Source of the DNA: a virus
IMG/VR virus record: IMGVR_UViG_3300013018_000042
Location: 1-44,807 of that record
Direction: 5' to 3' (one strand)
Length of the DNA stretch: 44,807 nucleotides
In this document: one piece after another, positions 1-44,807 of the stretch
How positions within the stretch are numbered: position 1 is the stretch's first letter
Layout: every line of letters begins with the position of its first letter
Position numbers and translations under genes: made by a program
Notes under the pieces: model-generated
Told to the model about the DNA's origin: nothing
The model's input: only the letters and a program-made list of their open reading frames with translations
The model's database searches: none

Positions 1-260
1 GAATGTCCTGTGAAGGTTGTTATCACATTACCTGTTGCTACTTCCCACACCTTTGCTGTGTTATCCCAGCTTCCGCTGACTACATAGTTACCGTCAGGTG
101 AGAAGGCTACAGAACGAACATCATCTGAATGTCCTGTGAAGGTTGTTATCACATTACCTGTATCATACTCCCACACCTTTGCTGTGTTATCATCACTACC
201 GCTGACTACATAGTTGCCGTCAGGTGAGAAGGCTACAGAATAAACATAATTTGAATGTCC
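1..260 (-). repeat. 126-bp tandem WD40 repeats, left end of window
   Basis: Repeat 1 is 260-135, repeat 2 is 134-9, and repeat 3 is cut at 8-1. The core GHSxxVxSVAFSPDG is constant. Residues 4, 5 and 7 (N/Y/Y in repeat 1, D/D/R in repeat 2) and residue 23 (D or W) vary. The DNA of the units is nearly identical even at silent positions, apart from a few codons in repeat 1. Confidence 0.95.
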
Positions 261-578
261 TGTGAGGTTTGTTATTTGGTTATTATTGTTTATTAATAAG
301 CCTAAATTATCTTCTACTTTTTCTACAGGATTTACAACCGCTAATTGATTTCCCTGCAGTCCTGTTTGGCTTCTGGTTGGTGCTATATTGCTATCTCCAA
401 GATAACACCTATTAAACACACTTGCATTAAGTAATCCAAAATTACCAGTAAAAAACTTATTCAAATAATTATCCAAAAGTATATTATTTTCTTCAATAAT
501 TTCTTTTTTTCCGTTTCTTGTATCAGTTAACTCATATTTAACTTTACCCTGTATTCCAAAATCAAAGTTTAAATTCAT
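1..578 (-). CDS. WD40 virion-type protein, N-terminal part (runs off the window)
   Basis: The gene starts at ATG 578 behind GGAGGT and is open to base 1, continuing in frame at 44807. Residues 1-100 resemble the N-terminal domain of phage tail or fibre-like proteins: a long-lived loop followed by a CYLGDSN segment and a TGLQGNQLA segment. WD40 repeats of 42 residues begin near residue 101. The segment NQITNLT just before the first GHS matches the end of each repeat (NVITTFT), so it can supply the closing strand of a beta-propeller. Two full repeats and 8 nt of a third are present here. The stop of the upstream gene (580-582) overlaps the Shine-Dalgarno, indicating coupling. Virion location is inferred from the flanking domains and the position among structural genes; the WD40 identity is clear. 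Confidence 0.85.
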   Translation of the reverse strand, partial: MNLNFDFGIQGKVKYELTDTRNGKKEIIEENNILLDNYLNKFFTGNFGLLNASVFNRCYLGDSNIAPTRSQTGLQGNQLAVVNPVEKVEDNLGLLINNNNQITNLTGHSNYVYSVAFSPDGNYVVSGSDDNTAKVWEYDTGNVITTFTGHSDDVRSVAFSPDGNYVVSGSWDNTAKVWEVATGNVITTFTGH

Positions 579-579
579 T

Positions 580-2520
580 TTATACCTCCAGCCACAATAC
601 TGAATTTACAACTATGTCTATACTGTTATTTTCTGATCTATCAAACTCTCCGTCAGAAATATACATATCTACACTTCTTGCCTTACTTGCTATATTTTCG
701 ACTAATAGCGATAAATTATCTTCCACTACATATCCTGTTTTAGAAATAATAAAATTATATGCTGTATCATAAACCAATAAATCTTCTATTACCTGACCGT
801 TGACATCTGTAGTTAAGTTAATCTCTGGCATATCTCTTTGTGCTTCAATAGTAATATCAGCACCATCTATAGAATTTCCAGCTAAATCCTTTACAGTTAT
901 AGTAGTAGTAATATACATTGTTTCCCATTCTACCGCTGTTAAAATATCAATACTGCTATTTTCTACAAAAGGAGATATAAACGGCAACTCTATATTCTGA
1001 CTGCTTCCAGGAGTAAAATTATTTAATAATCCTATAGCTCTATTTATTCCTAAACTGCTGTCCTCAACAGTAAGCTGATATACTGTTTCATAAGGTATTA
1101 CATCAGTAAATAAAGCATTACCCGTGCTATCTGTTACAGATGATAATTCAGGTTGTTCTCTTTGTGCTTCTATAGTTATTGTTGTTCCGAATAAATCAGT
1201 TAAATCCTCCTGATTAAAAGCGTGTATATTTAAATCTATACCTGCTAAATCCCACAAAATATTACTAATTGATATATCTATATTGTTATTTTCTACAGGC
1301 TTACTGTCATCACCTAAAAATGGTACATTTATATCCATCATTTTAGTTTCATCATTGTTAAATATTAATAATCCCCAGCTGTCCTCTATAATACCTTCTT
1401 TTTCTAACACAAGTTTATATACTGTATTATATGGTATTATTAAAACTGAACCTTCACCTGCTGTGTTTAACGTTGTTGATATGCTTTCCTGCTCTTTCTG
1501 TCCTTCAATATATATATCTGCTTCTGGTGAAGAAAATAGATTAATTAAATATCTCATATCTTCCCAGGTTAAATTACTTACATCTATATCAATGCTATTA
1601 ATAATATCATCAAAATAAGGCTCTAAAACAGGTTCTTTATATTTAAATACATATCTGTAAAGTTCATCTGTTATTGTGTATTTATAAGGTTTATAATCAT
1701 CATCACGCTTATAAAAAACTATTAATTTTCCGCTGTATTCTATTGGGTCAGGGCTAAACTCTGGGTATGGTTTTGCAACTATTTCTTTTTCATCAATTTT
1801 AAAAGCATTAATGAAGTCTAAAGTTCTTTCCGGCTCAAATATATAGTCTATACTGTGTTCAGTATTATAACTTTCATTTTCTAATCTATAATAAATATTA
1901 GTTTGTTCTTGATCGCCATAAAACAAAACTAACTCTTTGTTGTGATTTAATACTAAAGTTGGCGAGCTGCCGTTACAAATTTTTCTTATACTACTTCCTT
2001 CATAAGGATAACTCATTAGCCATATTTCTTTAACTCCAGTACCAGCTATTGTTATTTCTACTGCTATTTCATAATGCCCTGCTGGATTAAACTCTATTGT
2101 CGGTTTTTGACTCCCTGTAGGAGAAAAAGCTAACAATTCATTTCTATCCCAACCAGTTAATTCTTCATTAGCTTTAAGCAGATATATTTCGCCTATACTT
2201 GCTTGATATACCCCCCATAACCTGCCCGAATACTCGTTATATCCATAATCCTGTGTGGTGTATTCTATTTTAGTAACAGGGTCGGTTTCCCAATTGTCAG
2301 GATAAACTTGTATTGGTAATCCTTCGCCTTCATTAAGAGGCCCCCAGCAAAAATCATAATCATCTGTGAAGCCTAAATAATCATTATCTGCTTCAAAAGC
2401 TTTAGTGACAATATGCTCACCTGTACCAAATTGAGAAAACATTTTCTCGATATAATTCCAATAATGGACTGGAAATTCTAAATTTTGTTCGTTATCGTTA
2501 TTCCAGTTTAATTCCTGCAT
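580..2520 (-). CDS. Virion-associated protein with C-terminal Ig-like repeats
   Basis: About 646 residues, no certain family. ATG 2520 is preferred over GTG 2526 because AAGGA lies about 9 nt upstream of the ATG but only 3 nt from the GTG. The N-terminal 300 residues are aromatic and acidic with no recognised domain. The C-terminal half contains three related blocks of about 90-100 residues, each with an (A/T)xIxIEAQR- or IEGQKEQ-type strand, a TxxxG turn, a YxTxY(Q/K)L strand and an ENNxIDI end. This is the layout of carboxypeptidase-regulatory or SpaA-type beta-sandwich repeats. Position after the capsid gene and directly before the WD40 gene suggests a surface or tail adhesin-like role, which is inference. 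Confidence 0.7.
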   Translation of the reverse strand: MQELNWNNDNEQNLEFPVHYWNYIEKMFSQFGTGEHIVTKAFEADNDYLGFTDDYDFCWGPLNEGEGLPIQVYPDNWETDPVTKIEYTTQDYGYNEYSGRLWGVYQASIGEIYLLKANEELTGWDRNELLAFSPTGSQKPTIEFNPAGHYEIAVEITIAGTGVKEIWLMSYPYEGSSIRKICNGSSPTLVLNHNKELVLFYGDQEQTNIYYRLENESYNTEHSIDYIFEPERTLDFINAFKIDEKEIVAKPYPEFSPDPIEYSGKLIVFYKRDDDYKPYKYTITDELYRYVFKYKEPVLEPYFDDIINSIDIDVSNLTWEDMRYLINLFSSPEADIYIEGQKEQESISTTLNTAGEGSVLIIPYNTVYKLVLEKEGIIEDSWGLLIFNNDETKMMDINVPFLGDDSKPVENNNIDISISNILWDLAGIDLNIHAFNQEDLTDLFGTTITIEAQREQPELSSVTDSTGNALFTDVIPYETVYQLTVEDSSLGINRAIGLLNNFTPGSSQNIELPFISPFVENSSIDILTAVEWETMYITTTITVKDLAGNSIDGADITIEAQRDMPEINLTTDVNGQVIEDLLVYDTAYNFIISKTGYVVEDNLSLLVENIASKARSVDMYISDGEFDRSENNSIDIVVNSVLWLEV

Positions 2521-2542
2521 ACTCACCAGTCCTTTATTTTAA

Positions 2543-20906: not shown

Positions 20907-20907
20907 A

Positions 20908-21222
20908 TTATTCCTCCTTATTATCAAGAATTACCATAGCGTGTGCCCTTCTTAAAGCTAAGTATTTGCCTAACAATGGTATGTTATAATCATCTTCGGC
21001 TAGTTCAGCTTTAGTTCTTAATTCTTCTTTCTGATATTCGTCTTTTTTAGGAAGAATACGGCAGGTAGTGGTAATTCCCTCACCGAAAAAGTCAACTTTA
21101 AACCCAGCCCTCCCTAAATCAGCTTTCATCTCATTAATTTCTCTTTGAATAATTCTTAATCTACGCTGAATAATATCCATTCTCTTAATAGCCCAGAAAT
21201 CTCTTCTTTCTAATTTAGTCAT
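20908..21222 (-). CDS. Helical hypothetical protein
   Basis: 104 residues, long charged helix in the first half (RRLRIIQREINEMKADL), mixed second half. AAGGGGG precedes ATG 21222, which overlaps the previous gene. No family recognised. Confidence 0.65.
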   Translation of the reverse strand: MTKLERRDFWAIKRMDIIQRRLRIIQREINEMKADLGRAGFKVDFFGEGITTTCRILPKKDEYQKEELRTKAELAEDDYNIPLLGKYLALRRAHAMVILDNKEE

Positions 21223-24929: not shown

Positions 24930-25208
24930 TTAAATCATATCAAGTAACCTTTTTATATTTTCGCTAGGATTTGAAGAACGCTTATTATCTATATTCCTAT
25001 AATTACTATCTAAAAGTTTAGTCATTTCTCTATCAAAAATAAATTTCATAAATGCCATTTTCTCAGTTTTTAATTTATCGGCAGTATAACCAAAATCTAA
25101 CTCATTATTTTCTTTTCTTTCTGCTATATACACAATATTTCTAATATCGTCTTTCAAAACTTTCTTTTCGCCTTCATCATTAACTTTTACAATTTGATAT
25201 TTACTCAT
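24930..25208 (-). CDS. Hypothetical protein
   Basis: 92 residues starting MSKYQIVKVNDEGEKKV, beta-strand start then helix. ATG 25208 overlaps the preceding gene. No family recognised. Confidence 0.65.
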   Translation of the reverse strand: MSKYQIVKVNDEGEKKVLKDDIRNIVYIAERKENNELDFGYTADKLKTEKMAFMKFIFDREMTKLLDSNYRNIDNKRSSNPSENIKRLLDMI

Positions 25209-30805: not shown

Positions 30806-33800
30806 CTAATCACTAAGCGGCTCTTTGCTATTATATCTACGAGCCAAATTAATTTTTTGTCTTTCTAGTTTATCTACTGTTTCTTTTTTACCCTGGCTTT
30901 GAGCGTACTTAATTTGCCTGTTGATATTAGCGAAGTGCCTAATCAGCTTATTTAGTTGTGATAAATTCCTTTTAGCTTCCATTATTTCTTTTCGTGAGTA
31001 CCTTAAATCTTCGCCATATCTCCTTGAATTATTATAATTAGCGACCATTTGAGTATATTTTTTCTGATCCTGGTACACTTTTGTTACATCTTCATAATAT
31101 CCAGACTCTGACACACTTATTAGCCGCTTAACTGCATTAAAAGGTATGATATTACTTAATGCTTCTAAAGTGCCGTCAGCATAAGCAATAGAAGGATTAA
31201 CTATTGCACTACCTCCTAAGTTAAAGAACTCATATAATCCAAATTCTTTAAGTTTCTGACCGACATTATTAGTCAGCATAGCTTCCTCTGAAATTACATT
31301 TCTTCCCCGCCAGGTATCGTAAATATTCTCTCCAGATGTTAACCTTTGAACATCAGCTGCGGCCTGCAATAACGGGTTAAGATTACTTGTATTCCACGGT
31401 AATTCAGTCCAGGCTGTACCTGCAACATCTCCCCATTCTCCACGGGCTGCATTATAAACTAATGAAGTTACAGCCTGCCCGATAAAATCCTGTGGCAGTT
31501 GTATAGTTATTGCTTTGCCGTTTGCTTTCCATACAGGAACTACTAAATAAGTTTCTTTTTTATATTCGCTGACGCCTTCCATTGTTTCTGCTATCTTTTT
31601 AGCAAATTCGCTTTCAGGGAATAACTCATCAGCTTCTTCTGCTCCTAACTGCAGTAATTTAGGCAGCAAACTTAATAACGCAACTTTAAATAAGAATGTG
31701 CCTGGATTTTGCCTAAAACTTTCAGCTGCAGCAGTCCAACCTGATTTCCTAATTGTTGAGAAGATAAATAAGTTATTAGTAATTGAGTGTAAAGCACCTC
31801 TTTGCTTGAAGTCAGGAGTACCGACTCTGGTCCTTACTCTGTGGGCTAAATCGCCTTCTGATAGATTAGTCATATTCTTCAACATTCTATATCCAGCAAT
31901 CTGGCCTGTCATTTCTGACACCTGACCGAAGTTGTCTAATCCCTCCCAAGCACTACGGACTTTATCAGGTATTAATTTCTGCAATCTGCTGTGTTCTTCC
32001 CCACTTTGTTCGTTATAATCAAAGATTTCAGTTAATAGCTGTTGAGTATCATCTTCCATATAACTGTCAGAAGGTCTATACATTCTGTCTATGGTTAACA
32101 TTCTATTTCTTCTCATATATGAAATATCTTCTGATCTCTTATTGTGCCTTACATTATTCCAGGCTTCTGAAAAAGCCTTCTTGTACTCGTGGGCTAATGC
32201 TGGAATATCTTTTATACCAATTTCAGGGTTATTCATAACTGTAGCAAAGAAATCTCGTGGAATGTTAAAAATCATCCAACCTGGGTTGTGAGATACCATT
32301 ATCGACTTCATACCCTGGACTATTGATAAAATAGTATTTGTAGCTGCATTAGCCTTGTGTGGAGTATATTCGTATAGGTCAGCTATATCTTTTTCAACTA
32401 AATATCCGTCTAATTTGCCGTTAACTGTAAAAGTTATTAATCCTTCATCAGCGTCTGTAGAGTCTTTAGGTATTATCTTACCGTATATTTCTTTTGTTGG
32501 TGCTTGTCTTATTGACTCTGGGGCTATTTTCTTTAATGCTTTTACTGCAGCCACCTTAGACTCGTTAATACGGATAGAACTGATTATACTCATATCTTTA
32601 AGCATTGTGGCAACAAGTGGATTACTTATTTTCCTACCTGTACCATATTGCCGCATAATTATATCGCCAGTACCTTCGCCAAATTCAGTATTAATATAAT
32701 CTACTACCTCAAAAGTTACATACTCTTTATTATTTTTAACTTTTTCCATAGCCGCTTCTGTAAACATATTAGATTTTTCCATTATAGGTATAATTCTTTC
32801 CTGTCTTAATTGATAATATTTTTCTGCAGCGTTAACTATTTTTTGATATTTTTCTTCTCCATATTTATCTAATAAAGCCTGCTGCATTTCTTCTGCTCTA
32901 ACTGTATTAACAAAAAGTGGGTTAGCAAATTTACTTCTGTCGCCCAAAACTCTTTTATTAAATAAGAAAGAGTTAAAATCTAAGAAGTCTATATCATAAT
33001 TTGATAATCCTTCTATTATCTGGCCTATATTGTAGAGGTAATCTTCTACCTCAGAGGACATATAAGCTATTTCCTCCATTTTATTTCTTGCTTCCCTGGA
33101 TAACCGTCCTTTTTCTCCAGTATCGCTGTATTCACCCCTGAAATATTTGTAGAGGGCTGAATTTTTATCAATAAAACTTTCTATTAGCCAATCAAAACCA
33201 CTTTTTACTCCCCGTTCTCTACGCTGTATCTTCTTTTTAGTCTGTTCTACACCGTCAACCATACCTTCTTGTAAATTGTCAAAGGTTTTGTTTATCATTT
33301 CAGATCTATTTTCCATTAAGTGCCTTACAGTATTATATGATTTTTTTACTGCTGGCTTTTTAGATATACTTTTCTGGATAAACTGACTAAATAATGGTGC
33401 TTCCTGCTGCAGCATATCAGGGTCTAAGAAGAACACACTCATAGCGTCAGCGTAAAGTTCCTCTGGGCTAAAGCGATATTTGGTAAATTTAAGATTATTT
33501 TTCGGATCAAAAGGTTTCCACTTCATAGATAATCTTTTTAGTTCAGTTTTAATTCGTGGTCCTAAGTTATTACTATCTCTAATAGCGTCCAGGACTTCAT
33601 CTTTCTGGCCTTTGTAGATAATACTCATTTGGTCCATTAAGCTGCCATCATCAAAATCATCACGGGGTATAAAGTCTATTAAGTGTCCTAATTCGTGCGA
33701 TATTGTCTGTGCAGCATATTCTGGATCGACTCTAATAACTCTTATCTCAACATAATTTTTAGAAAAACTTGTCCTGTATTCTACTTCGCCAATATCAGGA

Positions 33801-36800
33801 TCATTTGCTATTGTAGTCTGTATTTCCTGAAATCTCCTGTCGAATTGTTTAACAGGTACTCTTTCTCTTACAATAGTTTCACCCACAAATATATCAGGAT
33901 TAAGCCCTATCTGACCTTTTTTAGGAGCATAATATCCTAATGTACCTGTATTCCGTAAACTTTTAATAATCTGTGGATATTTGCCTTCTGATAAGGCTAG
34001 AATTATATCTAAGAGTTCAGGCATTTCTATTTTTTTATCGTTAAGAGTAAACTTTGCTCTAGCATACTTATTCTTCTGACTAAATTCTGTAGCATTGTTG
34101 CTCATTTTAACATTTTTACCGTTGATATTAATATTTTTAGGCTCTTTACCGAATAGTGTTTCTTGACTTGTATTAGTTTTTCCTACTGTAGCTTCTACTG
34201 ATTGCCTTAATAAATTTTCTTTAGTCGGCTGCTCAATATCAAACATAGAGTCCATATCAGCACGCCCAGCGTGTTCAACTCTATAAGTGTAATCTATCAG
34301 TATTTCTCTTAATGCTTTGCGACTACGCTTATTATTTTCAAACATTCTTACAAGACTTTCCTGGATAGGAGTATAGTTATCTTCGCCAAACATATTCTGC
34401 TGCTGAAAATAATTGTCGAATGATTTATCGGAATTTTTGATTGTTTTATACAGTTTAACAGCTTCTACTAAGTCCTGGCTTATATCTAAATCAGGTAGTA
34501 TTCCTTTATTCATCTGGTCTTGAATATTTACCATTCGTGGTGCTGCTTCCATCATAGCACCTGTAACATTTTTAAGATTACTAGAAGTTGACTCTGATAT
34601 TTCAGCTAAAATATTAATATCATCATAAGCTGCTGCGAATAAAGCGTTTTTAACTTTTCTGATACCTGCTTGGTTTAAATAACCTTTTTCATCTAAAAAC
34701 TCGCCTTTTTCAGCTTTACCCACTACCTGATCCATAAACTGATTAATAAAAGGTTTATTTGCTGAAATATTAATTAATCCATCATCGTGGGGTACAAATT
34801 TATTTAATAAGTCCTGTGTTATTCTGTCAGCGTCCACCATAGCCTGCTCACTTGCAGACATACTGGCACTTTCTCTAGCGTTGGCGTCCTGCACAAACCT
34901 TACCCTATCTTCGACATCAGAAGTCCTTACTCTAACTAATACAGGGTTATCTACATTATCAATTTGTTTAGCTGTTAATCCAAATTGTTCAGCATTATCT
35001 CTAAGCCATTGACGATAAGTTTCAGCATTTTTATGATTTTGCTCATATAAAGTTTTTAAGGCTATTGTTCTACCGTTACCAACTTCTACATATCCATCTG
35101 GTCCTAATATCGGTGATCCTGTAGCTGTAGAATAAGAGTCGCCCAACTTTTTAGGATTAAGATTGTTTACTATGTTTATGATCTGTTCCTGTGTGGCTGC
35201 TTTACCTCTATCTCGTGGCTGCAATTCCTGCGGGAAGTTCTCATTAACATTTAAACTGGTATCGTGAGAAGCCTGTATATCATCAGCGTTCATTACAGCA
35301 AATTTAGTTTTCACTTCTGTATTATTTGGTGTAGCTGTTTCTGACTCTCTACCTTCTGCCTGAATATTAATTTGTGGCTGTTCTTCTACAACTTCGCCTT
35401 CTTGTTGTCCTTCATCTTCAACAATATCTTCTTGTTGCTGTTGGCCTTCTTGGATAGGTTGGCCTTCAATAGCTGCTCTAGTTTTTCTGGCTTCATTGAT
35501 AGCGTCGTCTATTCTTTGATAAGTCCAGGTATTGCCGTTCGTATCTATAACATCAAATTTAGCACCGTTATGAATTACATAAGATTGTAATTCTTCTGGA
35601 ATACCAGGAGTATTCTCTTGCGAAGCCATTTCTCTAAAATTATCTATTTGCTCATTGCTCTGTTGTATATATTGGCCTGTTTCTTCTACTGTTGTATCTG
35701 ACTGTGTATTTAAACCTTCATCAGTTTGGCTTTCCTGCTCTATAGTATTATCCTGTTCTACTGATTGTTCAATTTCAATTATAGAAGGGTCAAATATAGC
35801 AGTTTGCCTTCCTCCTAAAATCGGTATATTAAATTTAATACCTTTTATACCATCTTGTTTCATTCTTTCTACAGCTTCTTTTGGTAAAAAATTAATTTGT
35901 TCTAAAGCATTGTCCCAATCATAATATTTACTTTTTTCTGCTTCGTTTGGTTTAATCCATTCATTTTCGATAAATTTTTGTGTCATTTCTTCTGTAACTT
36001 CATTTCTCTGACCTATTTTAGATATTGCTTCATTCAAAGAATTAATAGCGTTATTGTATTTATCGTTATCAACATATTTTTTCCAAATTTCAGCATATTC
36101 ATTAGGATTATTGATTTCAATTATATTTTGCTTAGGAATTTTAACGATAATTCTTTTATCATAATTAGGCAATCTAGCTCTAGAACCTCTAGTCCATTCA
36201 TCAGCGTCTAATGGTGCTGTATATAAAGCATTTGATATTATATTGTCCCCATATAATTTTCTTTTGTCATCTTCTGGTAAAATTTCAAATTGAGAATTAA
36301 TAATAGAATTATAATTATCTGTGTTGGTGTAATGAACTTCCGAATAATATCCAGCGCCATTATTTAATTGTTTATTTATAAAATTATCTACATTAAAATT
36401 AGTATTATCTACATTATTTGGCTGTTCAATTGGAGTTTGAGCGACATCTTCCTGTTGCTGTGGCTGTGGTGTATAATTTTGTCTAGCTTCTACTAACTGC
36501 TTTCTTAAATCTGATAAAACATTTAGCGATTTTTGTCGAACGGTATCTACATCATCTGCAGCTGTAGGCATATCATATTGACTTAAATCTACCTGGCCGC
36601 CATACTGATTAATTCTTCCTACTATATCATTAATCATTTTCTGACGGCTGCTAAGTAAATTCTGTGCTGCCTGTGGTTGATTTTCAGCTATTTCTGCCTG
36701 CTGCACCTGTTCTCTTGTTGCTGTTTCAAATGGAGTAACAGTTGATAGATCATATCCGTTGTTAGCAAGTACGGTAAACAATTCTTCCATACTTTCAGCA

Positions 36801-38290
36801 GTCATAGTACCCTGTCGCTGGTTGCCCTGGAATACATCAACTAAAATATTATCATTCATATTTCTTACAATAGCATAATTATTGTTATCTATATTAACTG
36901 TAAAAGTGTTTAAATCTTGCTGGTTATTGATTAAGTTTTCTAAAATTCTTTGTTTAGCAACTGCTGCAGCTTTTTGTTCAGCCATTGTTCCCTGAAAACC
37001 TTGGAAAGCATTTTGGGTAGCTTCTCCACTTTGTTGTCTTTGCCTTTCTATTTCCTCTTGCTGTTGCATTTGAGATATTTTATTATTAATTTGATTGCTT
37101 ACTTCTTCTATTCTTCTTTGTTTTTGCTGATTAGCTTCTTGTTCGGCTTTTTGCTTTAATTCTTCTAATTGTCTAAGTGCTTTTGAAAGCTCGTTCATTT
37201 CATACCTTCTATTTTGAGCATTATTTTGACGATAATCACCTGTTGAAGATAAAATAGCACCTGTAGCAATAGCACCTAATCCAGCGTTAGCAACTAAAGA
37301 AGTGAATTCGTCTGCATTAAATTGTTTTCCTTTAATTATTACATCAGAAATATAGTTTGTTGCTTCTGTACCCATTTCCTCGCCAGCTTCACTCAAACCA
37401 CCTTTAGCACCTGATTTAAGCCAGTTTGCAAGACCCCATTCTATACCTTTTTGCATTTGGTCGCCAGCTATTTTATTAGTTCTCACAATATCATCTATCA
37501 TAGGGAGTGTTACTAAACTTTCCCAAATCACTTCGGAAGTACCTTTTACACCTGCTGATAGTAACTCTTGTTGGTCTGATAGTTCAGGATCACCTTCTGT
37601 TTCTCTATATTCGCCACCAGCAGCTGATAATCCAATAACTGCTTTGGGTAGGGCTTGCGATAGTACATTAGAAGTACCTAACATACTACCTGCTGTGCTT
37701 GTAGCACCTAAACCCTGTGCTGCTGTACCTGCAAAACCGCCCATCATAGCAAGTAATATATTAGGAGCAGTCAGTGCTGTTACGCTAACTAGCTGCTTGC
37801 CAAAGTCCATAAATCTGCCTTCTTTTAGACTTTCTATCATATTATTACCCAACTGCTTACTTTCCATACTCTTGCTATCAAAAATGGTTTCTGCAGCTTG
37901 ATTAGAAGCGTCAGAATAGCTGTCTAACCCTTCTTCTATAAGATTAAACCCTGGTATCTTAAAAGCGTCGCTGCTGTCAACTTTCATTTGTTCATTACCT
38001 GTTAATTCTGCAAAAGCATTTTGAGGTTGTGCTGCAGCTGAATAAACGAATTTACCCAGCCATCTAGCACCATTTGCTATATTACCAAATAATCTAGCTG
38101 ATCCTCCTGCGAAATCTTTGGCAGTATCAGTAAATATGTTGCCGTCATTATACTGCGGCTGAGGTTGATTAACTGGCTGGCTGATATTTTGTTCTGTATT
38201 CATCTGCATATCAGGAAAAGGTATAGCTTTTACATTTATTTTATTGTTGTTTTCTTTTTCCATTCCAGGAAAAGGTATTGCTTTAGCCAT
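30806..38290 (-). CDS. Giant polyvalent virion protein
   Basis: 2494 residues, one sixth of the genome. Two AIPFPxM motifs at residues 4-10 and 22-28, then hydrophobic stretches (about 150-350). About 648-835: ART-like domain (EVHYTNTDNYNSI ... LYTAPLDADEW ... RQTAIFDPSIIEI). About 995-1240: DdrB/ParB-like domain with VGNGRTIAL near 1075. Zincin HELGH at about 1532, third ligand probably in EELYADA. From about 2000: LPD38-like region (HNPGWMIFNIPRDFF onward). Such proteins are packaged and injected, where they modify or protect host and phage components. Activities are inferred. Confidence 0.8.
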   Translation of the reverse strand: MAKAIPFPGMEKENNNKINVKAIPFPDMQMNTEQNISQPVNQPQPQYNDGNIFTDTAKDFAGGSARLFGNIANGARWLGKFVYSAAAQPQNAFAELTGNEQMKVDSSDAFKIPGFNLIEEGLDSYSDASNQAAETIFDSKSMESKQLGNNMIESLKEGRFMDFGKQLVSVTALTAPNILLAMMGGFAGTAAQGLGATSTAGSMLGTSNVLSQALPKAVIGLSAAGGEYRETEGDPELSDQQELLSAGVKGTSEVIWESLVTLPMIDDIVRTNKIAGDQMQKGIEWGLANWLKSGAKGGLSEAGEEMGTEATNYISDVIIKGKQFNADEFTSLVANAGLGAIATGAILSSTGDYRQNNAQNRRYEMNELSKALRQLEELKQKAEQEANQQKQRRIEEVSNQINNKISQMQQQEEIERQRQQSGEATQNAFQGFQGTMAEQKAAAVAKQRILENLINNQQDLNTFTVNIDNNNYAIVRNMNDNILVDVFQGNQRQGTMTAESMEELFTVLANNGYDLSTVTPFETATREQVQQAEIAENQPQAAQNLLSSRQKMINDIVGRINQYGGQVDLSQYDMPTAADDVDTVRQKSLNVLSDLRKQLVEARQNYTPQPQQQEDVAQTPIEQPNNVDNTNFNVDNFINKQLNNGAGYYSEVHYTNTDNYNSIINSQFEILPEDDKRKLYGDNIISNALYTAPLDADEWTRGSRARLPNYDKRIIVKIPKQNIIEINNPNEYAEIWKKYVDNDKYNNAINSLNEAISKIGQRNEVTEEMTQKFIENEWIKPNEAEKSKYYDWDNALEQINFLPKEAVERMKQDGIKGIKFNIPILGGRQTAIFDPSIIEIEQSVEQDNTIEQESQTDEGLNTQSDTTVEETGQYIQQSNEQIDNFREMASQENTPGIPEELQSYVIHNGAKFDVIDTNGNTWTYQRIDDAINEARKTRAAIEGQPIQEGQQQQEDIVEDEGQQEGEVVEEQPQINIQAEGRESETATPNNTEVKTKFAVMNADDIQASHDTSLNVNENFPQELQPRDRGKAATQEQIINIVNNLNPKKLGDSYSTATGSPILGPDGYVEVGNGRTIALKTLYEQNHKNAETYRQWLRDNAEQFGLTAKQIDNVDNPVLVRVRTSDVEDRVRFVQDANARESASMSASEQAMVDADRITQDLLNKFVPHDDGLINISANKPFINQFMDQVVGKAEKGEFLDEKGYLNQAGIRKVKNALFAAAYDDINILAEISESTSSNLKNVTGAMMEAAPRMVNIQDQMNKGILPDLDISQDLVEAVKLYKTIKNSDKSFDNYFQQQNMFGEDNYTPIQESLVRMFENNKRSRKALREILIDYTYRVEHAGRADMDSMFDIEQPTKENLLRQSVEATVGKTNTSQETLFGKEPKNININGKNVKMSNNATEFSQKNKYARAKFTLNDKKIEMPELLDIILALSEGKYPQIIKSLRNTGTLGYYAPKKGQIGLNPDIFVGETIVRERVPVKQFDRRFQEIQTTIANDPDIGEVEYRTSFSKNYVEIRVIRVDPEYAAQTISHELGHLIDFIPRDDFDDGSLMDQMSIIYKGQKDEVLDAIRDSNNLGPRIKTELKRLSMKWKPFDPKNNLKFTKYRFSPEELYADAMSVFFLDPDMLQQEAPLFSQFIQKSISKKPAVKKSYNTVRHLMENRSEMINKTFDNLQEGMVDGVEQTKKKIQRRERGVKSGFDWLIESFIDKNSALYKYFRGEYSDTGEKGRLSREARNKMEEIAYMSSEVEDYLYNIGQIIEGLSNYDIDFLDFNSFLFNKRVLGDRSKFANPLFVNTVRAEEMQQALLDKYGEEKYQKIVNAAEKYYQLRQERIIPIMEKSNMFTEAAMEKVKNNKEYVTFEVVDYINTEFGEGTGDIIMRQYGTGRKISNPLVATMLKDMSIISSIRINESKVAAVKALKKIAPESIRQAPTKEIYGKIIPKDSTDADEGLITFTVNGKLDGYLVEKDIADLYEYTPHKANAATNTILSIVQGMKSIMVSHNPGWMIFNIPRDFFATVMNNPEIGIKDIPALAHEYKKAFSEAWNNVRHNKRSEDISYMRRNRMLTIDRMYRPSDSYMEDDTQQLLTEIFDYNEQSGEEHSRLQKLIPDKVRSAWEGLDNFGQVSEMTGQIAGYRMLKNMTNLSEGDLAHRVRTRVGTPDFKQRGALHSITNNLFIFSTIRKSGWTAAAESFRQNPGTFLFKVALLSLLPKLLQLGAEEADELFPESEFAKKIAETMEGVSEYKKETYLVVPVWKANGKAITIQLPQDFIGQAVTSLVYNAARGEWGDVAGTAWTELPWNTSNLNPLLQAAADVQRLTSGENIYDTWRGRNVISEEAMLTNNVGQKLKEFGLYEFFNLGGSAIVNPSIAYADGTLEALSNIIPFNAVKRLISVSESGYYEDVTKVYQDQKKYTQMVANYNNSRRYGEDLRYSRKEIMEAKRNLSQLNKLIRHFANINRQIKYAQSQGKKETVDKLERQKINLARRYNSKEPLSD

Positions 38291-39889
38291 TTAATCCACC
38301 CCATTATTACTTAGGTAATTAATCATTTCTTCTATAGTAATATTATTTGTATTCTCAAAATCACTTACGAATTGGACATTGTTTTTATTAGCCTGGAATT
38401 GTTCTAGTAATTGTTCTTCTGTCATATTAAAAGTATTTTTATAAGCGTCAACAATCGCTTGTTCTGTTAAATTTCCTGTTTCATCATCAATATAATTGTT
38501 ATATTCTTCATTTAAACTTCCACCTGTTATGCCAGGAGGGGTATTAGGAGGTGAAGTTACTATATCAAATACACCATTCCAAAAACCACCGGTTTCTTCT
38601 TCTCCGCCGCCGCCACCGCCTTGTGGTTGTACGAAGGTATCGTGATATTGATATTGGTATCCCATTTCTTCATCGCCAATAGCCTGAACTAATTGGCCAT
38701 CTTTATTAACATAAGGAATAGTAGCGTCCCGCATTAAAAATCCAGTATCAGGGTTTCTTCTTATTGGGCCTTCTTTATCAAAATTAATGATAGGCCATTG
38801 GCTTATATCCACACTACCTGCACCTGGTCCGCCGCCTGGACTGCCGCCACCGTTTAATCTCAATAAAGCTGCTATACCACTTGCATATTTAAGCGGTATC
38901 TGCCCTTCTATACCGAATTGGCTTCCATCAATGGTAGGTCCATAATCTGCTCCTTGAGGATTTAATGTTTTTTGATAATTTATAGCACCATTTAAAACAT
39001 TTATATACTGTCCTGCTTCGCTGATAGGTATTTCCCCGCCAGGAAGCCCGAGCTCGCCTAAATTAATTAATCTTTCCTGTTCAGGTTGCATTTGTTCCAT
39101 ATAAGTTCTTACCATTTGTGCTGTTATATCATCTGCTGTAGTTTCTCTAGCTGCATTATAATTAGCAATCTCGCCTTCTAAATTATAATTTTCGTCTAAA
39201 GCGGCTCGTGCAGCTAAAAATTCTATCGGATTATTTATATTTTCATAAAAACTGGGTCCTTCTTCTGGCTGTGCAAAAATTTCATTTTGAATATAACTTA
39301 TTCTTTCATCAGGATTAACAAATTCTTCTGGCACATCAACATAATTCGACAAAAAGTCGCCATATTCTTGAGATACTAAATTTTGTGCAAATTCGTTACC
39401 ATCAAAAGCAGCTTGTGTCCAGCGATCATTCAAAAATTTAGTTTTCATATCAGGTTGTTCCTGCATAAAAGCTGAAAGGAAAGGATTATTAGTTAAATCT
39501 TCGCCGTATGCTTCACTAGCACCAGCCATAATGTTACCAAACTCATTTTCGTCCCACGCCCCGCTGCTTAAAGCCTGTACTGCTGTGTTTAAAAACTGAC
39601 CTTTGTTCATGCCCATATAAGTAGGAGTTTCTTTACCAAAAAACATTTCAGTAGGAGTTGTACCTTCCTGTGTATCTACATATTGACCGTACTTATCTAC
39701 AAATTCCTGCTGTGCTGCAGGAGTACCAATCTGTCTAGCTCGACTATAAGCCTGCATAGCAAAAGGATCTTGAAATACATCATAACTACCACTTTTTTTA
39801 GCAGCCCAATTTGATACCCTCTGCATACCACCTGCTTGATTAAACCCCTGCATAAAACCTGTTAAAAAATCACTACCTTTTCTAGCCAT
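38291..39889 (-). CDS. Internal virion (ejection) protein candidate
   Basis: 532 residues, Gln/Asn/Glu-rich and largely helical in the first 330, a Gly-rich linker near 345-360, a beta segment, a run of glycine near 430, and an acidic helical end. The N-terminus (MARKGSDFLTGFMQGFNQAG) is typical of internal proteins of short-tailed phages. It lies between the small virion genes and the giant protein. AAGGAGGTG precedes ATG 39889. Confidence 0.6.
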   Translation of the reverse strand: MARKGSDFLTGFMQGFNQAGGMQRVSNWAAKKSGSYDVFQDPFAMQAYSRARQIGTPAAQQEFVDKYGQYVDTQEGTTPTEMFFGKETPTYMGMNKGQFLNTAVQALSSGAWDENEFGNIMAGASEAYGEDLTNNPFLSAFMQEQPDMKTKFLNDRWTQAAFDGNEFAQNLVSQEYGDFLSNYVDVPEEFVNPDERISYIQNEIFAQPEEGPSFYENINNPIEFLAARAALDENYNLEGEIANYNAARETTADDITAQMVRTYMEQMQPEQERLINLGELGLPGGEIPISEAGQYINVLNGAINYQKTLNPQGADYGPTIDGSQFGIEGQIPLKYASGIAALLRLNGGGSPGGGPGAGSVDISQWPIINFDKEGPIRRNPDTGFLMRDATIPYVNKDGQLVQAIGDEEMGYQYQYHDTFVQPQGGGGGGEEETGGFWNGVFDIVTSPPNTPPGITGGSLNEEYNNYIDDETGNLTEQAIVDAYKNTFNMTEEQLLEQFQANKNNVQFVSDFENTNNITIEEMINYLSNNGVD

Positions 39890-39901
39890 ATGCTCACCTC
39901 C

Positions 39902-40492
39902 TTAGCCGAATAAAGCCTGTTTTGCCATTGATAAAGTCGCAGAATTATTCATAAAATTACTTCCTGTATTATTAAATATTCCAGTTAATTTTTGCTGACT
40001 TTGAAAATCATTCTGTCCTAAATCATTCCAATTATAATTGCCCCATCTGAAATTACTGTATTTATTGCTGTATTCATTATTCTTATTTTGAATATATTGA
40101 TTATATTCTGGATTAGCAGCCTGTCTTTGATAAGTATTGTATTTCTGTCCTATACTCATAACGTCCCTTATAAAAGGATTAGGATTTTCTGCTATTTTAT
40201 AGCTTTCTGTAATTGATTTAGAAGGTGCATTTTCTAAAATATTTTGTTTATCATTTGCATAATTTAAAGTTGGTGTGTTTGATGAATAACGATTACTACT
40301 TCCACTTTCCCCTTTATGACTAAAAACATTATTTGTACTTGTTGGTGTGTTTGATGAATAGCGATTACTGCTTCCACTTCTGTTGCTTTTACTATAACTG
40401 TTATTTGCAGTATCATTTCTACTATTACCACTATTATAATTTGTTCTGTCTATAGTCGAGCCTCCATAGCCAAAACCACTTCCTAAGCCCAT
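39902..40492 (-). CDS. Ser/Asn-rich virion-region protein with internal repeat
   Basis: 196 residues. The first 80 are Ser, Asn, Gly and Tyr-rich and disordered, with GSSNRYSSNTPT present twice. The C-terminal half has aromatic residues (NFRWGNYNWNDLG). AAGGAGG precedes ATG 40492. Probably a minor head-tail or internal protein. Confidence 0.6.
   Translation of the reverse strand: MGLGSGFGYGGSTIDRTNYNSGNSRNDTANNSYSKSNRSGSSNRYSSNTPTSTNNVFSHKGESGSSNRYSSNTPTLNYANDKQNILENAPSKSITESYKIAENPNPFIRDVMSIGQKYNTYQRQAANPEYNQYIQNKNNEYSNKYSNFRWGNYNWNDLGQNDFQSQQKLTGIFNNTGSNFMNNSATLSMAKQALFG
40269..40379 (-). repeat. 39-bp direct repeat in a structural gene
   Basis: 40269-40307 and 40341-40379 match except for two bases, start to start 72 bp, in frame. 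They encode the doubled GSSNRYSSNTPT. Confidence 0.85.
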
Positions 40493-40503
40493 AATACGCC
40501 TCC

Positions 40504-40953
40504 TTATCCTGTTAGCCAGTTAGCAATCATATTAGAACCGCCTGGGCTGCCTAAAAAGCTACCAGACATAGTACCCAGCATACTCCAAAAAGGATCTGGC
40601 TGATTATACTGCTGTAATTCGTGAGTATATTGCTGATATGCTTCTGCATAATTACTATTTCTTAAATTTTGTGCATATCTTGATTTTTGTGTCTGATAGT
40701 CGTTTTCCATATCAGTCATAGCGTCCTGTTTTAAATAATCTCCAGGTGCTTGACCGTAAAAACCCTTAGATACCATATTCCTATTAATATCATTTATTAC
40801 CTGTTCTCTGTTATCCTGGAAAGGTTGTCTTAAAGCGTCCTCTGCTTGTTTTAATGCTTCATCATAAGACATTTTTTGTGGTGCTTTAGGCTCGCTGCCA
40901 CCGCCACTCAATGCACTACCCAACAACGCCCCTGATACTAATGCACCTAACAT
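40504..40953 (-). CDS. Small virion protein with hydrophobic N-terminus
   Basis: 149 residues. MLGALVSGALLGSALSGGG starts a hydrophobic Gly/Ala segment. A conserved-looking middle (MSYDEALKQAEDALRQPF, then SKGFYGQAPGDYL) follows, with a second hydrophobic patch at the end. Similar proteins accompany ejection proteins in short-tailed phages; the hydrophobic ends suggest membrane contact on DNA entry. Confidence 0.6.
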   Translation of the reverse strand: MLGALVSGALLGSALSGGGSEPKAPQKMSYDEALKQAEDALRQPFQDNREQVINDINRNMVSKGFYGQAPGDYLKQDAMTDMENDYQTQKSRYAQNLRNSNYAEAYQQYTHELQQYNQPDPFWSMLGTMSGSFLGSPGGSNMIANWLTG

Positions 40954-40965
40954 AATATCCCTCCT

Positions 40966-41301
40966 TTAAACATTCTCTAATGCTGTTATCCTTGCTTCTA
41001 AATCATCTATCTGCTGCTGTAAATTAGTTATATCAGTATTACTAGCAGATCCACTATGAGGATTATCTTTCAACTCATGAGTATCAGTATAATCTTTAGC
41101 TGCTGTTTCTGCCGAGTCTGCTTTTGCCTGTGCTGCAGCTGGAGTTTCAGCACCTATAGAAGAAGGAGTAATAGTATCATTACCTCCAGCTGAATGAGTT
41201 TCAGCGTGCGGTGCTGGCTTATCTGAACTATCAATGGTTTCTTGAAGCTGCACATCTGCTCTTTTATCTCTAGCCCTTGAAATTCGTCTAGCTTTAGGCA
41301 T
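40966..41301 (-). CDS. Tail-fibre-like trimeric coiled-coil protein
   Basis: 111 residues. Basic N-terminus, HAETHSAGGNDTITPSSIGA (a short turn motif common in fibre proteins), an Ala-rich segment and a heptad helix at the end (ITNLQQQIDDLEARITALEN). Overlaps the previous gene by 8 nt. Adaptor or fibre-tip role is inferred. Confidence 0.65.
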   Translation of the reverse strand: MPKARRISRARDKRADVQLQETIDSSDKPAPHAETHSAGGNDTITPSSIGAETPAAAQAKADSAETAAKDYTDTHELKDNPHSGSASNTDITNLQQQIDDLEARITALENV

Positions 41302-42787
41302 TTGTTACCTGACCCCCTCCTGTATCTGCTTCTGAATAATAGAAGCCTAACCCGTAAATTTCTACTGGTGAATATTGATCGTTCTCTATCTCTAGTTGAA
41401 AACTGTTGCCAGAATATAAAGTTTTAATTCTCTTAGTTATTGTTTCATTATCTGTGTTATTACCATTGAGTATAAATTCGTCCTGCTTGGTATCATCTAC
41501 ATAAAGGCTAACTTTTAATTCGTGTATTTCGCCATAATTCTTAAAAATTATAAATATTTTATGGATATTTTTTCTTAAAAAAGGATTACCAAAATTATAT
41601 TTAGCCGTTCTCATCTTAAATGGTATTATAGCAGCTGTTCCGTCTGGTCTTATATCTTCTGTACTATCATCAGTAAATTTAAAGATGAAGTTATCGCTAG
41701 CAGCGTATAAATCACCATTAATAAGCTGACAAAAATCATTAACCTGTATTCCTGTATATATAGAAAAAGCTGCTGTATCAAAATCAAAAGTTAAAATTTT
41801 ATTGTTTATTCCATCTGCAGCGTCAGAATAAGCCATCATAAACCTACCACTTTCAGAATGGAATACTGTTCTGATAGCTGATTTATTAGTGCAATTTTTA
41901 ATTATGCTGCTAACTCTATCTTTTGTGATATTTGCTATATAATTTTGATCTGCTTCATTTTCCATTGAAATACCAATGATAGAAGGTAATAATGCAAATA
42001 TACCATCATCTGACACCATAGATAAACTGGCTGTAGTTAAAGCAAAGGCGTCTCCATTTATCGGTCCGTGTGCTGTAGGCAACTTCTCCCAAATAGCGTC
42101 TGCTGCAGGGTCTATTCCCCTCCATATCCAGTTGCCATGTCTATATCCAACTATAATAGCGTCCATTAACACTGACAGGCCTAATATTGGCCCTTCTGCT
42201 CTTGTAGGATAAACAACGCTTGTTCCCTTAACAAAAGTCGGATCTAAATATTCGCTGTAGTATAAAGCATTTATTTCCTGATAATTTCCTGCAAAAAATA
42301 TTCTATTACTTTCAGAATGATAATGAGCAAATTGACAGTTTCTAATCGGTGCTAAATTATTTTCTGCGTCTGGATTAGGAGTTACTGCCTGTACTGTTGA
42401 GCCATCATATACATAGTATTCAGTACCAGGATCAATAAAGTATAACTTGTCCTGTAAGAAGAAATATGCTACTCTATCGGAATTTAAAGTTTTAATGGCT
42501 GTATAACTACCATCACCTGCTAAATCACACAATTCTTTATTAATAATAGCCATTAAATGAATGTTCCCGTCATCTCTAGGCCATTCAAACACCTGTGTTA
42601 CTCGCCCGGTATAAGCTGTGGTATTTACATTTTCTAATCCACCTCTTTTGCGGACACCACCTCTATTCATTACCTCTAAGTTTTCAGCTACAGTTAATTC
42701 TTCATTAGTTTTCATTATATCTGGTATATCAACATTCAACCCCATATTAAAATCAGCGTCAGCAAATTGTTGAATAGTATTAGGCAC
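41294..42787 (-). CDS. Tail nozzle-type protein (beta-propeller-like)
   Basis: 497 residues from GTG 42787, 5 nt after AGGTGAT. The N-terminal GLNVDIPDIMKTNEELTVAE and the run of beta-blade-like segments (for example DKLYFIDPG, NRIFFAGNY and DGIFALLP) resemble the nozzle/tubular proteins that form the tail of podoviruses. It follows the adaptor gene. No catalytic motif. Confidence 0.7.
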   Translation of the reverse strand: MPNTIQQFADADFNMGLNVDIPDIMKTNEELTVAENLEVMNRGGVRKRGGLENVNTTAYTGRVTQVFEWPRDDGNIHLMAIINKELCDLAGDGSYTAIKTLNSDRVAYFFLQDKLYFIDPGTEYYVYDGSTVQAVTPNPDAENNLAPIRNCQFAHYHSESNRIFFAGNYQEINALYYSEYLDPTFVKGTSVVYPTRAEGPILGLSVLMDAIIVGYRHGNWIWRGIDPAADAIWEKLPTAHGPINGDAFALTTASLSMVSDDGIFALLPSIIGISMENEADQNYIANITKDRVSSIIKNCTNKSAIRTVFHSESGRFMMAYSDAADGINNKILTFDFDTAAFSIYTGIQVNDFCQLINGDLYAASDNFIFKFTDDSTEDIRPDGTAAIIPFKMRTAKYNFGNPFLRKNIHKIFIIFKNYGEIHELKVSLYVDDTKQDEFILNGNNTDNETITKRIKTLYSGNSFQLEIENDQYSPVEIYGLGFYYSEADTGGGQVTNA

Positions 42788-43310
42788 GGCGGATCACCTG
42801 TACTTTAGCTGGTGATTTAGTAGAAATTAAACTGCTTGCTGCTCTTTGGACTTTTTCTGTAAACTTCTGATAATACTTTTCTGAAATCTGATCGTCTAGA
42901 TCTTCATTTTCTCTTATCCAGCCTAAAACATAATATTTAACTGCATTATTATACATTCTGTGAAGATTATTGATAGGCTCTGCTATATCATTTAGATAAT
43001 CAGGCATTTTTCTTGCAACTATCTTATAACTTCCAGCGTCAGGTATTCTTATACTACCATTTCTATATATCCAGCCTTCATAATAATGTTCTCCGTTGTC
43101 ATAGATAATCAGATGTTCTATTGTTGAAAAATCTTCTGGCAGTTCATACCATTGAGTGCCGTCAGTAACATCTAAATCTATTGTTGCATAAAGAAGGGCT
43201 AAATCAGCTATTTCGTCTAAACATTCATTTATAGCAAGCAATATATCATCAGGACTTAATGTCCTTCCTAACCTGCTTTCTACATAACTTTGTATCTCTG
43301 TACCTGTCAT
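42780..43310 (-). CDS. Head-tail adaptor protein
   Basis: 176 residues, helical start (TEIQSYVESRLGRTLSPDDI, LLAINECLDEIADLA), a beta insert and a C-terminal helix with YKIVARKMP and Y-x-x-A-V-x-Y. This is the gp4/gp11-type adaptor layout beneath the portal. GAGGTGA before ATG 43310. Eight nt overlap with the nozzle gene. Confidence 0.7.
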   Translation of the reverse strand: MTGTEIQSYVESRLGRTLSPDDILLAINECLDEIADLALLYATIDLDVTDGTQWYELPEDFSTIEHLIIYDNGEHYYEGWIYRNGSIRIPDAGSYKIVARKMPDYLNDIAEPINNLHRMYNNAVKYYVLGWIRENEDLDDQISEKYYQKFTEKVQRAASSLISTKSPAKVQVIRRA

Positions 43311-43748
43311 TTAGCTCACCTCATTCCACTCTAATGGTATTTTTACCTCTTTATCCCATGTATTTTGTTCTTTATCACTTAAAGTTATTACTAAAGAATA
43401 AACTTTAGGACTGTTTTCGGGTATTATCATAGATATATAACTTCTAATAACATACCGCAGCTTGATAAATGGATCATCATTTAGCTGTTTAACATTCTGT
43501 ATATACTGCCCGTTAATCATTTTATCCCAACTATTGCCGCTATCCATAGAAGTAAGTATATCTATCTCATTTCCCTGGATAGGTCTACTAAACCAACTAA
43601 TCTTGCCCGAATTTATCTCGTCTAATACTGTAAATGCTTCTGATAAATCAATATTAGGACTTTCTCGTGTGCCTAATGCTAATGTACGGTAATTATTAAC
43701 ATCAGGCATATTTTCATCACCGTAAACTCCTTTTTCTACAAAATTCAT
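43311..43748 (-). CDS. Structural-region protein, unknown
   Basis: 145 residues, beta-rich (for example NEIDILTSMDSG, IKLRYVIRSYISMII). ATG 43748 lies 3 nt after GGTGAT, close behind the WD40 gene. An internal ATG 43709 is a poorer choice. Its strand-rich nature and location suggest a tail or baseplate component. Confidence 0.6.
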   Translation of the reverse strand: MNFVEKGVYGDENMPDVNNYRTLALGTRESPNIDLSEAFTVLDEINSGKISWFSRPIQGNEIDILTSMDSGNSWDKMINGQYIQNVKQLNDDPFIKLRYVIRSYISMIIPENSPKVYSLVITLSDKEQNTWDKEVKIPLEWNEVS

Positions 43749-43760
43749 TTAATCACCATC

Positions 43761-44807
43761 TTAACTAGGGTTTAAGGAAAATGTTATATCAAAGTAAAAT
43801 CTATAAGTGTTAACCTTATCAAGTGGTGGAGTGAATAACACTCTACCGAAATAATCTCCTGCACTATTCCTTAATATTATTTCTCCCAAACCGTCAGCGT
43901 GATTGCCTTGGTCTGACTCTAAACCTACCCTAAATGTTCTTGAATAACTACCAGCTGTATAAGGTTCTTGTGTTACTTCAAATGGTGCTATAAATCCGCC
44001 TGATATGTCAGTTCCTTCTAAAGATAAGCCTAATTCAATATTTTCAGTCCCTAAAGGATATTTCTTAGCATTTGAAGTGCCTAATGCAAATTGCGGTGTA
44101 CCTGATATTCCGAAAAAACTATCTAATGATTTAAGATTAAATTTTGATATATCAGCTAAAGCTCTATTTGCTATTTCTACATCAATATCTATTGAAGTAC
44201 CATCTCTTTGCCCGTCAGCTATTGTAGTTGTATAATAAATAGTTGGACTTTTAACTTCTATAACCCAGGTTATATCCAATTGATGATAATCTTTTTTATC
44301 TATAGCGTTAGTTGGAACCTGTCTTGCCACCCAGTCATTATTATATCTATCATCATATGATGAACTTGTAGAATAATCTCCTGTTCTTAATGCTATTTCT
44401 TTTATTAACATAGAAGTACCTGTGCCTGCATTAAATCTATACTTATATCCCATCCTGACAGAGTTTATTAGTTTATCATTAAACTCCCACACCTTTGCTG
44501 TGTTATCCCAGCTTCCACTGACTACATAGTTACCGTCAGGTGAGAAGGCTACAGAATAAACATCATCTGAATGTCCTGTGAAGGTTGTTATCACATTACC
44601 TGTTGCTACTTCCCACACCTTTACTGTGTTATCCCAGCTTCCACTGACTACATAGTTACCGTCAGGTGAGAAGGCTACAGAACGAACATCATACGAATGT
44701 CCTGTGAAGGTTGTTATCACATTACCTGTTGCTACTTCCCACACCTTTGCTGTGTTATCCCAGCTTCCACTGACTACATAGTTACCGTCAGGTGAGAAGG
44801 CTACAGA
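43761..44807 (-). CDS. WD40 virion-type protein, C-terminal part
   Basis: Open from 44807 to TAA at 43761 in the frame that continues from base 1. It contains most of repeat 3, repeat 4 and repeat 5, then, from WEFNDKL, a non-WD40 domain: NSVRMGYKYRFNAGTGTS, then MLIKEIALRTGDY, a long beta-rich stretch and the end FDITFSLN. The YRFNAGTGT...KEIALRTG pattern continues the domain begun before the propeller, so the WD40 array is an insertion in a loop of a phage fibre- or baseplate-like protein. With five repeats the protein would be about 545 residues; with seven, about 629. Confidence 0.85.
   Translation of the reverse strand, partial: SVAFSPDGNYVVSGSWDNTAKVWEVATGNVITTFTGHSYDVRSVAFSPDGNYVVSGSWDNTVKVWEVATGNVITTFTGHSDDVYSVAFSPDGNYVVSGSWDNTAKVWEFNDKLINSVRMGYKYRFNAGTGTSMLIKEIALRTGDYSTSSSYDDRYNNDWVARQVPTNAIDKKDYHQLDITWVIEVKSPTIYYTTTIADGQRDGTSIDIDVEIANRALADISKFNLKSLDSFFGISGTPQFALGTSNAKKYPLGTENIELGLSLEGTDISGGFIAPFEVTQEPYTAGSYSRTFRVGLESDQGNHADGLGEIILRNSAGDYFGRVLFTPPLDKVNTYRFYFDITFSLNPS
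44486..44807 (-). repeat. 126-bp tandem WD40 repeats, right end of window
   Basis: Repeat 3 (partial, 44807-44703), repeat 4 (44702-44577) and repeat 5 (from 44576, diverging after about 90 nt). Variable residues: Y/D/R in repeat 4 and D/D/Y in repeat 5 at positions 4, 5 and 7; V instead of A at 27 in repeat 4. The remainder is nearly identical in DNA. Confidence 0.95.

Follow-up and report, generated by a model that had tools for sequence, protein, structure and literature searches.

The window analysed here, a stretch of DNA of 44,807 nucleotides (IMG/VR record IMGVR_UViG_3300013018_000042), reads as the genome of a podovirus with a circular map that is cut within a WD40 fibre gene. With moderate confidence, the product of this gene is taken to be a host-recognition fibre with a highly repetitive WD40 wheel that faces outward and would be varied by repeat duplication and recombination. 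A further reading is tentative: the phage would change its receptor-binding surface as near-identical WD40 blades in the fibre are gained, lost or reordered. Known routes by which phages vary their receptor-binding proteins are retroelements, phase variation and fibre swapping. If the reading is true, recombination between protein repeats would be another such route, and phage host recognition would be linked to the diversification of fungal non-self receptors.

The split fibre gene and its WD40 units

The IMG/VR record of the window is classed as linear. Both contig ends lie inside one minus-strand gene, with the N half at 578..1 and the C half at 44807..43761, and the reading frames are open in both halves. 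The original prediction had placed the protein at 43761-44807, which contains the C half, while the N half lies outside these coordinates. In a sister phage (L011, IMGVR_UViG_3300043118_000002), the contig is unbroken from the match to window 2537..1625 into the match to 43761..39621, so the window ends adjoin each other in this phage group. In addition, the sister genomes G001 and G002 are circular maps, of which the ends adjoin or share an overlap of about 158 bases that contains variants. The splitting of the gene by the contig ends and the continuity in the sister indicate that the window is a nearly complete genome whose array could not be closed by the assembler.

The N half opens with a domain of 100 residues that is not WD40, after which come two complete WD40 units and the first 11 bases of a further one. 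The C half contains one partial and two more WD40 units, followed by about 240 residues that are not WD40. Units are numbered such that TGHS forms residues 1-4 of the 42-residue unit. The parts of the gene, all on the minus strand, are as follows.

279..578, minus strand: N-terminal fibre domain, residues 1-100 (ORF 3..578, gene start at 578); aligns with the N domain of L011
138-263, minus strand: WD40 unit A, the first unit or N cap (PF00400 at 171-278, E 7e-16; N5, Y6, Y8, D24)
12-137, minus strand: WD40 unit B (PF00400 at 45-155, E 6e-17; D5, D6, R8, W24)
1..11, minus strand: start of a further WD40 unit, 11 nt, which stops before the third base of codon 4
44706-44807, minus strand: WD40 unit C, partial, codons 9-42 (PF00400 at 44739-44807, E 1e-10)
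44580-44705, minus strand: WD40 unit D (PF00400 at 44613-44723, E 4e-17; Y5, D6, R8, W24, V28)
44454-44579, minus strand: WD40 unit E, the last unit, with strands a-b-c only at 44484..44579 (PF00400 at 44487-44597, E 4e-17; D5, D6, Y8, W24)
43761..44483, minus strand: C-terminal fibre domains and stop codon; 41% identical to the C domain of the sister phage L013 and 32% to that of L011

Arrays of 126 bp were detected by TRF at both contig ends (1-275 and 44485-44807), and PF00400 matches at five places with E values from 4e-17 to 1e-10 (39-58 bits, cut-off 27). Over the length that they share, the middle units B, C and D have a DNA identity of 97-99%, and the predicted near-identical WD40 units of 42 residues and 126 bp are thus recovered. 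Unit A is 85-89% identical to these three, and unit E is 94-99% identical to them over its first 96 bases (to codon 32), after which it merges into the C domain. In the unit alignment, the amino-acid identity among the full units A, B and D is 0.83-0.95, which places them in the class of highly repetitive WD40 proteins (internal identity of at least 0.7; PMC5587647). Every full unit has G2 and H3, S21/S23, D25 and W31, corresponding to the GH, the SPDG motif and the D and W of the DHSW tetrad. The window holds at least five WD40 units, and exactly five if only 13 bases are missing between the halves; the true number is probably seven. WD40 propellers usually form closed rings of seven blades with a Velcro closure, and the homologue in the sister phage L013 has seven. 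A scan of viral_contigs with the DNA pattern of the 126-bp unit matched only the near strain, and therefore yielded no second resolved array.

Within residues 1-32, the amino acids of the five units differ at positions 5, 6, 8 and 24 and, in one unit, at 28. These are the residues 4, 5, 7 and 23 of the original prediction, which were counted from the G, with position 28 in addition. Residues 33-34 also differ in units A and E, and synonymous changes among the units are found at codons 4, 16, 21, 22, 23 and 32. In a published scheme for WD40 proteins, three positions of the top face are hot spots: R1, which is located by the bulge motif (V,L,I)-R1-R2-(V,L,I), R1-2 and D-1 (PMC3419727). In the unit TGHSDDVRSVAF...SGSWDNT, R1 is position 8, R1-2 is position 6 and D-1 is position 24, while position 5 is R1-3; the variable residues thus include all three published hot spots. 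In the fungal HET-D, HET-E and HNWD proteins, codons 7, 9, 25 and 27 are under strong positive selection, around the fixed codons 8 and 26 (PMC1805685). These four codons map to window positions 6, 8, 24 and 26, of which 26 is invariant in the window. The predicted resemblance to the top-face positions of fungal HET/HNWD proteins therefore holds for three of the four positively selected codons.

Unit alignments of bacterial WD40 arrays found as relatives were used for comparison, 19 of which have a mean internal identity of at least 0.7. In these 19 highly repetitive arrays, the five most variable columns are 6, 24, 8, 26 and 5 (0.57-0.69 versus a median of 0.10). The units of the window differ at four of them (hypergeometric p 7e-4, with only five units). 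With R1-2, R1 and D-1 alone the p value is 0.002, and with the HNWD set it is 0.008, again with five units. At the five predicted columns pN/pS is 0.265/0.083, compared to 0.007/0.153 elsewhere, in five units and with small counts. A contrast of the anticipated kind is visible in these few changes. Relaxed constraint at the hot spots would produce part of the variation pattern, and hot-spot variation alone can arise in this way. The same columns are also variable in bacterial WD40 arrays of all identity classes. Within this small sample of five units, variation that is largely limited to the hot spots is supported by these sequence comparisons.

The positions at which the contigs break are also related to the units. 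The N half of the window ends with the second base of codon 4, the third base of which varies among units (TCA/TCG), and the C half begins directly after codon 8. The near strain (L006/L008) ends with the second base of codon 23, beside D-1, and here too the third base varies (AGC/AGT). Both window ends and one end of L008 thus lie in the array, and each adjoining base is variable among the sequenced units. For the edge of the C half, this requires a third-base variant at codon 8, which is absent from the window units and present in L006 (TAC). Unlike the window and L008, L011 and L013 assemble through the fibre locus. Breaks at such positions are expected where the assembly graph branches at unit variants, and they are a hint, not proof, that more unit variants exist than were assembled.

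The propeller within the fibre-type protein

Two sister phages carry other versions of this protein. In L011, a protein of 343 aa at the same locus has the same N and C domains without WD40, and in L013 (3300026624_000001) a 613-aa version carries seven diverged blades in an array that was assembled unbroken. The N-terminal domain of the window protein is 94% identical to that of the near strain L006 and 44% to that of L013. A distant phage with the same gene order (L045) also has a fibre without WD40, indicating that the bare fibre is probably ancestral. The propeller as an insertion between two non-WD40 domains of one fibre-type protein, as originally proposed, is supported by the WD40-free homologue at the same locus in L011 and the distant one in L045; these are also the WD40-free relatives of the flanks for which a search had been suggested.

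The flanks were also predicted to be two halves of one fibre or baseplate domain, and the tail fiber family PHROG 4176 matches the C domain of L011 (E 7e-11) and that of L013 (E 3e-5). When the window's own C half was compared to the PHROG profiles, PHROG 4176 stayed below the reporting threshold. To our knowledge, no propeller is known in the PHROG 4176 tail fiber family. The placement of the WD40 gene product among fibres is supported by these profile matches of the sister proteins and by the location of the gene between those for the major capsid protein and the adaptor.

The AlphaFold model of the L013 protein contains a closed seven-blade wheel between two fibre strands, with a block pLDDT of 87-98. 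Of its 28 strands (1+24+3), the first is the entering d strand, the next 24 build six full blades and the last three are strands a, b and c; the wheel is entered at the outer d strand and left after strand c. The PDB matches of this model are WD40 domains, with TM values up to 0.95. In propellers of this kind, the chain comes in by the d strand and goes out by the c strand at the bottom face. With both linkers at the bottom face, the top face with its hot spots would be directed away from the fibre body in this model.

The bare-fibre AlphaFold model has low confidence (pLDDT 52), and a PDB structure search with this model gave no significant match; its top match, a Haloferax virus tail, had an E value of 0.016 and was set aside. 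A PDB sequence search with the C-domain profile gave no match. Single-sequence searches with the C domain in viral_contigs and INPHARED found no close relatives, and an alignment search found only sisters and the outgroup contigs L044/L045, with no bacterial genome matched. No NACHT is present among the matches listed (25 Pfam), and the N domain (100 aa) matched only sister fibre proteins.

The fibre slot in sister phages

The fibre gene and its partner gene form a cassette between virion genes, which are listed below together with the retroelement found in other sisters.

580..2526, minus strand: partner gene, 648 aa, with Ig-like/CarboxypepD_reg repeats (PF13620, E 2e-9), upstream in the cassette
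43311..43748, minus strand: 145-aa gene, downstream cassette border, 85-92% identical in L011/L013
42780..43310, minus strand: adaptor (head-tail connector), cassette end (PF24175 SU10_adaptor, E 1e-10), 95-98% identical in L011/L013
2949..4157, minus strand: major capsid, upstream of the cassette (PHROG 1328, E 6e-26), 99.5% identical in L011/L013
5693..7624, minus strand: portal/head-tail adaptor of podovirus type (PHROG 332, E 3e-34; PHROG 1216), 99% identical in sisters
L158:526-4641, L160:140-4255 and L161:3069-7186: diversity-generating retroelement (tail protein, reverse transcriptase and template repeat)

Compared to L011 and L013, the capsid, portal, adaptor and next tail protein are 95-99% identical, the partner gene is 45-66% identical and the fibre is 32-44% identical. 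By these identities, the slot is a hypervariable fibre cassette, the immediate neighbours of which are 85-99% identical across sisters. The partner gene also varies in length among sisters (about 400, 530 and 648 aa), so the partner (580-2526) may also be a varying surface protein.

In other sisters, the slot is occupied by different genes. In L012, it holds a GTA TIM-barrel (GTA_TIM, PF13547) tail protein. In L158, L160 and L161, it holds a Gp80-type fibre protein (PF23140), a tail protein (PHROG 5302, E 2e-86) of which the C terminus differs by strain, and a reverse transcriptase (PF00078, E 7e-18; PHROG 1423, E 7e-119). These three contigs also carry a 107-bp template repeat, and 70 of the 73 mismatches between template and variable repeat are at template adenines. 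As read from these features, the slot content is a diversity-generating retroelement that is apparently functional. In the window genome (G000), no RVT_1 reverse transcriptase and no copy of a WD40 unit or template outside the array were found. One slot among near-identical virion genes thus has five contents: repetitive WD40, diverged WD40, bare fibre, retroelement with tail protein, and TIM-barrel tail protein. The shared slot and the nearly identical virion genes indicate that these phages use this position for a tail protein varied by a retroelement or, alternatively, for a repetitive WD40 fibre.

Proposed explanation, alternatives and comparable systems

In the favoured explanation, the gene product would be a tail-fibre or appendage protein of the podovirus, presumably incorporated in the virion. 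A complete WD40 propeller, most likely with seven blades, would be inserted in a loop of the fibre body, with both linkers meeting its bottom face and its top face pointing off the virion. The blades would be recent copies of one unit, the framework of which may be held uniform by purifying selection and by copying between units, and the top-face residues 5, 6, 8 and 24, which differ by blade, would form a binding surface. This surface would most likely be used for host recognition, presumably by receptor binding. In the tandem 126-bp repeats, unequal recombination or slippage should be able to duplicate, delete and reorder blades, although such shuffling is presumed. Because these near-identical tandem units could recombine, the array could plausibly serve to change specificity, and it would fill the place held by the diversity-generating retroelement in sister phages. 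It is possible, but rather doubtful, that such blade shuffling is a recombination-driven counterpart both to the retroelement in the sister slot and to the shuffling of WD40 units in the non-self receptors of fungi. The window encodes a Mu Gam-like protein (PF07352), SSB, a VRR-NUC nuclease and a RadC-like protein, none of which is needed for repeat slippage. Of the recombination genes named in the original prediction, the Gam-like protein was thus recovered, while the proposed annealing protein (25201-26469) had matches only to families that give no indication of this function, and no annealing protein was recognised in the window by profile families.

Part of the probability, appreciable but minor, goes to a static adhesin, in which the propeller binds one ligand, the blades are alike only from recent amplification and the hot-spot differences are tolerated or needed for that single fixed ligand. 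Highly repetitive WD40 proteins have been read as young and more stable (PMC5587647), which fits this alternative, as do the variability of the same columns in bacterial arrays of every identity class and the diverged, resolved array in the same fibre of L013. However, the slot is hypervariable and holds a retroelement in sisters, and the position of the contig ends at variable codons is a hint of unit variants beyond those assembled. It is unlikely that, instead of a host-recognition fibre, the gene encodes a protein that acts on the cell side or is accessory to the virion (e.g., for anti-defence or host interaction), with WD40 for intracellular binding. WD40 domains are general protein-binding platforms and the nearest WD40 relatives are bacterial proteins, with 69% identity at best, but the gene lies between the capsid and adaptor genes, sister proteins match a tail-fiber PHROG, and tail proteins or the retroelement replace the gene in sisters.

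Mutation of the hot-spot codons by a diversity-generating retroelement, now or formerly, is very improbable. In the sequenced units, codons 5, 6 and 8 are all NNT/NNC (AAT, GAT, TAT, TGT, CGT and TAC are present), as adenine mutagenesis of AAY would give, and sisters carry an apparently functional retroelement in this slot. Against this, the D-1 codons are GAT/TGG and AT-rich codon use accounts for most NNT codons; retroelement control of the WD40 units was rejected, as the window contains neither a reverse transcriptase nor a unit template copy elsewhere. An assembly artefact, in which an unrelated contig would have received at its ends a chimeric repeat or pieces of arrays from different phages, is hardly credible: both contig ends do lie in the array without an exact overlap, but L011 is continuous over the same junction, G001 and G002 are circular maps too, the contig of L008 independently breaks off in this array, following the same N domain, and the frames are open.

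For the favoured reading of a variable host-recognition fibre, several known systems are relevant. Highly repetitive WD40 proteins have been described as a class of their own from bacteria and lower eukaryotes, and about 20% of prokaryotic WD40 proteins have an internal identity above 0.4 (PMC5587647). Those that are highly repetitive share with the window the 42-residue units, an internal identity above 0.7, the SPDG motif and the most variable columns, and a solved example (2ymu) is the best PDB sequence match. Unlike in these proteins, the array of the window is inserted in a phage fibre-type protein, in a hypervariable slot among virion genes. The Podospora HET-D/HET-E/HNWD NLRs (PMC1805685, PMC2873952) also have near-identical WD40 units and vary at top-face codons 7, 9 and 25, equivalent to window positions 6, 8 and 24. 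They differ in that fungal codon 27 is selected, whereas its equivalent 26 is invariant in the window, and in that NACHT is absent from the window protein. In the hnwd genes, rearrangement of the WD40 array with new unit variants has been documented, and the repeat number is unstable (PMC2873952).

Bordetella phage Mtd is the type case of a retroelement-varied receptor-binding protein. Phage diversity-generating retroelements act on receptor-binding proteins (PMC10743442), and those of L158, L160 and L161 share with the WD40 array the slot and the presumed purpose of varying a binding surface. The window differs from these phages in that it has no reverse transcriptase or template repeat, and its variation would arise by the copying of repeats and by selection.

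The window is not the only phage DNA with near-identical propellers, as judged by sequence matches. In 50,697 phage records, WD40-like matches were found only in Salicola phage SCTP-2 and Clostridioides phage pCD1602_4, with tandem 120-bp blades, and IMG/VR contains a further propeller family of 46-residue FSPDGNYLAVAH units with 138-bp blades, some of which are highly alike. SCTP-2 (genes 247/442), pCD1602_4 and the FSPDGNYLAVAH family also have tandem near-identical blades (up to 86-93% match), but these are not canonical 42-residue GH..WD units and their flanks are unrelated to those of the window. Among the titles and abstracts listed in literature searches on WD40 in phage fibres, there was no comparable case.

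Several other propeller genes were observed in these phages. A propeller protein at L141:4397-5456 has 7.7 nearly identical blades of 138 bp, and one block of two blades is present twice in it, a sign of block duplication. In pCD1602_4 (L051), an unannotated 738-aa protein has a tail-type N terminus and about a dozen WD40-like blades. SCTP-2 gene 442 (L050) encodes a hypothetical protein, estimated at about 3450 aa by the gene coordinates, that combines RCC1-like and Ig-like stretches with repetitive propeller stretches, and gene 247 (L007) consists mostly of near-identical blades.

The near strain originates from a North Sea oil field metagenome, 3300005067 (PMC5563965). Its terminase large subunit (L006:1-1158) contains an intein (Intein_splicing PF14890, E 3e-9), while the terminase of the window is without intein. 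Its major capsid gene (L006:5327-7639) is interrupted, with a LAGLIDADG endonuclease ORF (PF03161, E 3e-27) on the opposite strand in the gap, which suggests an intron or homing element. In the window, positions 30806-38290 encode a 2494-aa protein with a ddrB-ParB domain (PF18763, E 4e-35), which is probably an internal or ejected virion protein, and positions 20376-20927 encode a short radical-SAM protein (PF04055, E 1e-7).
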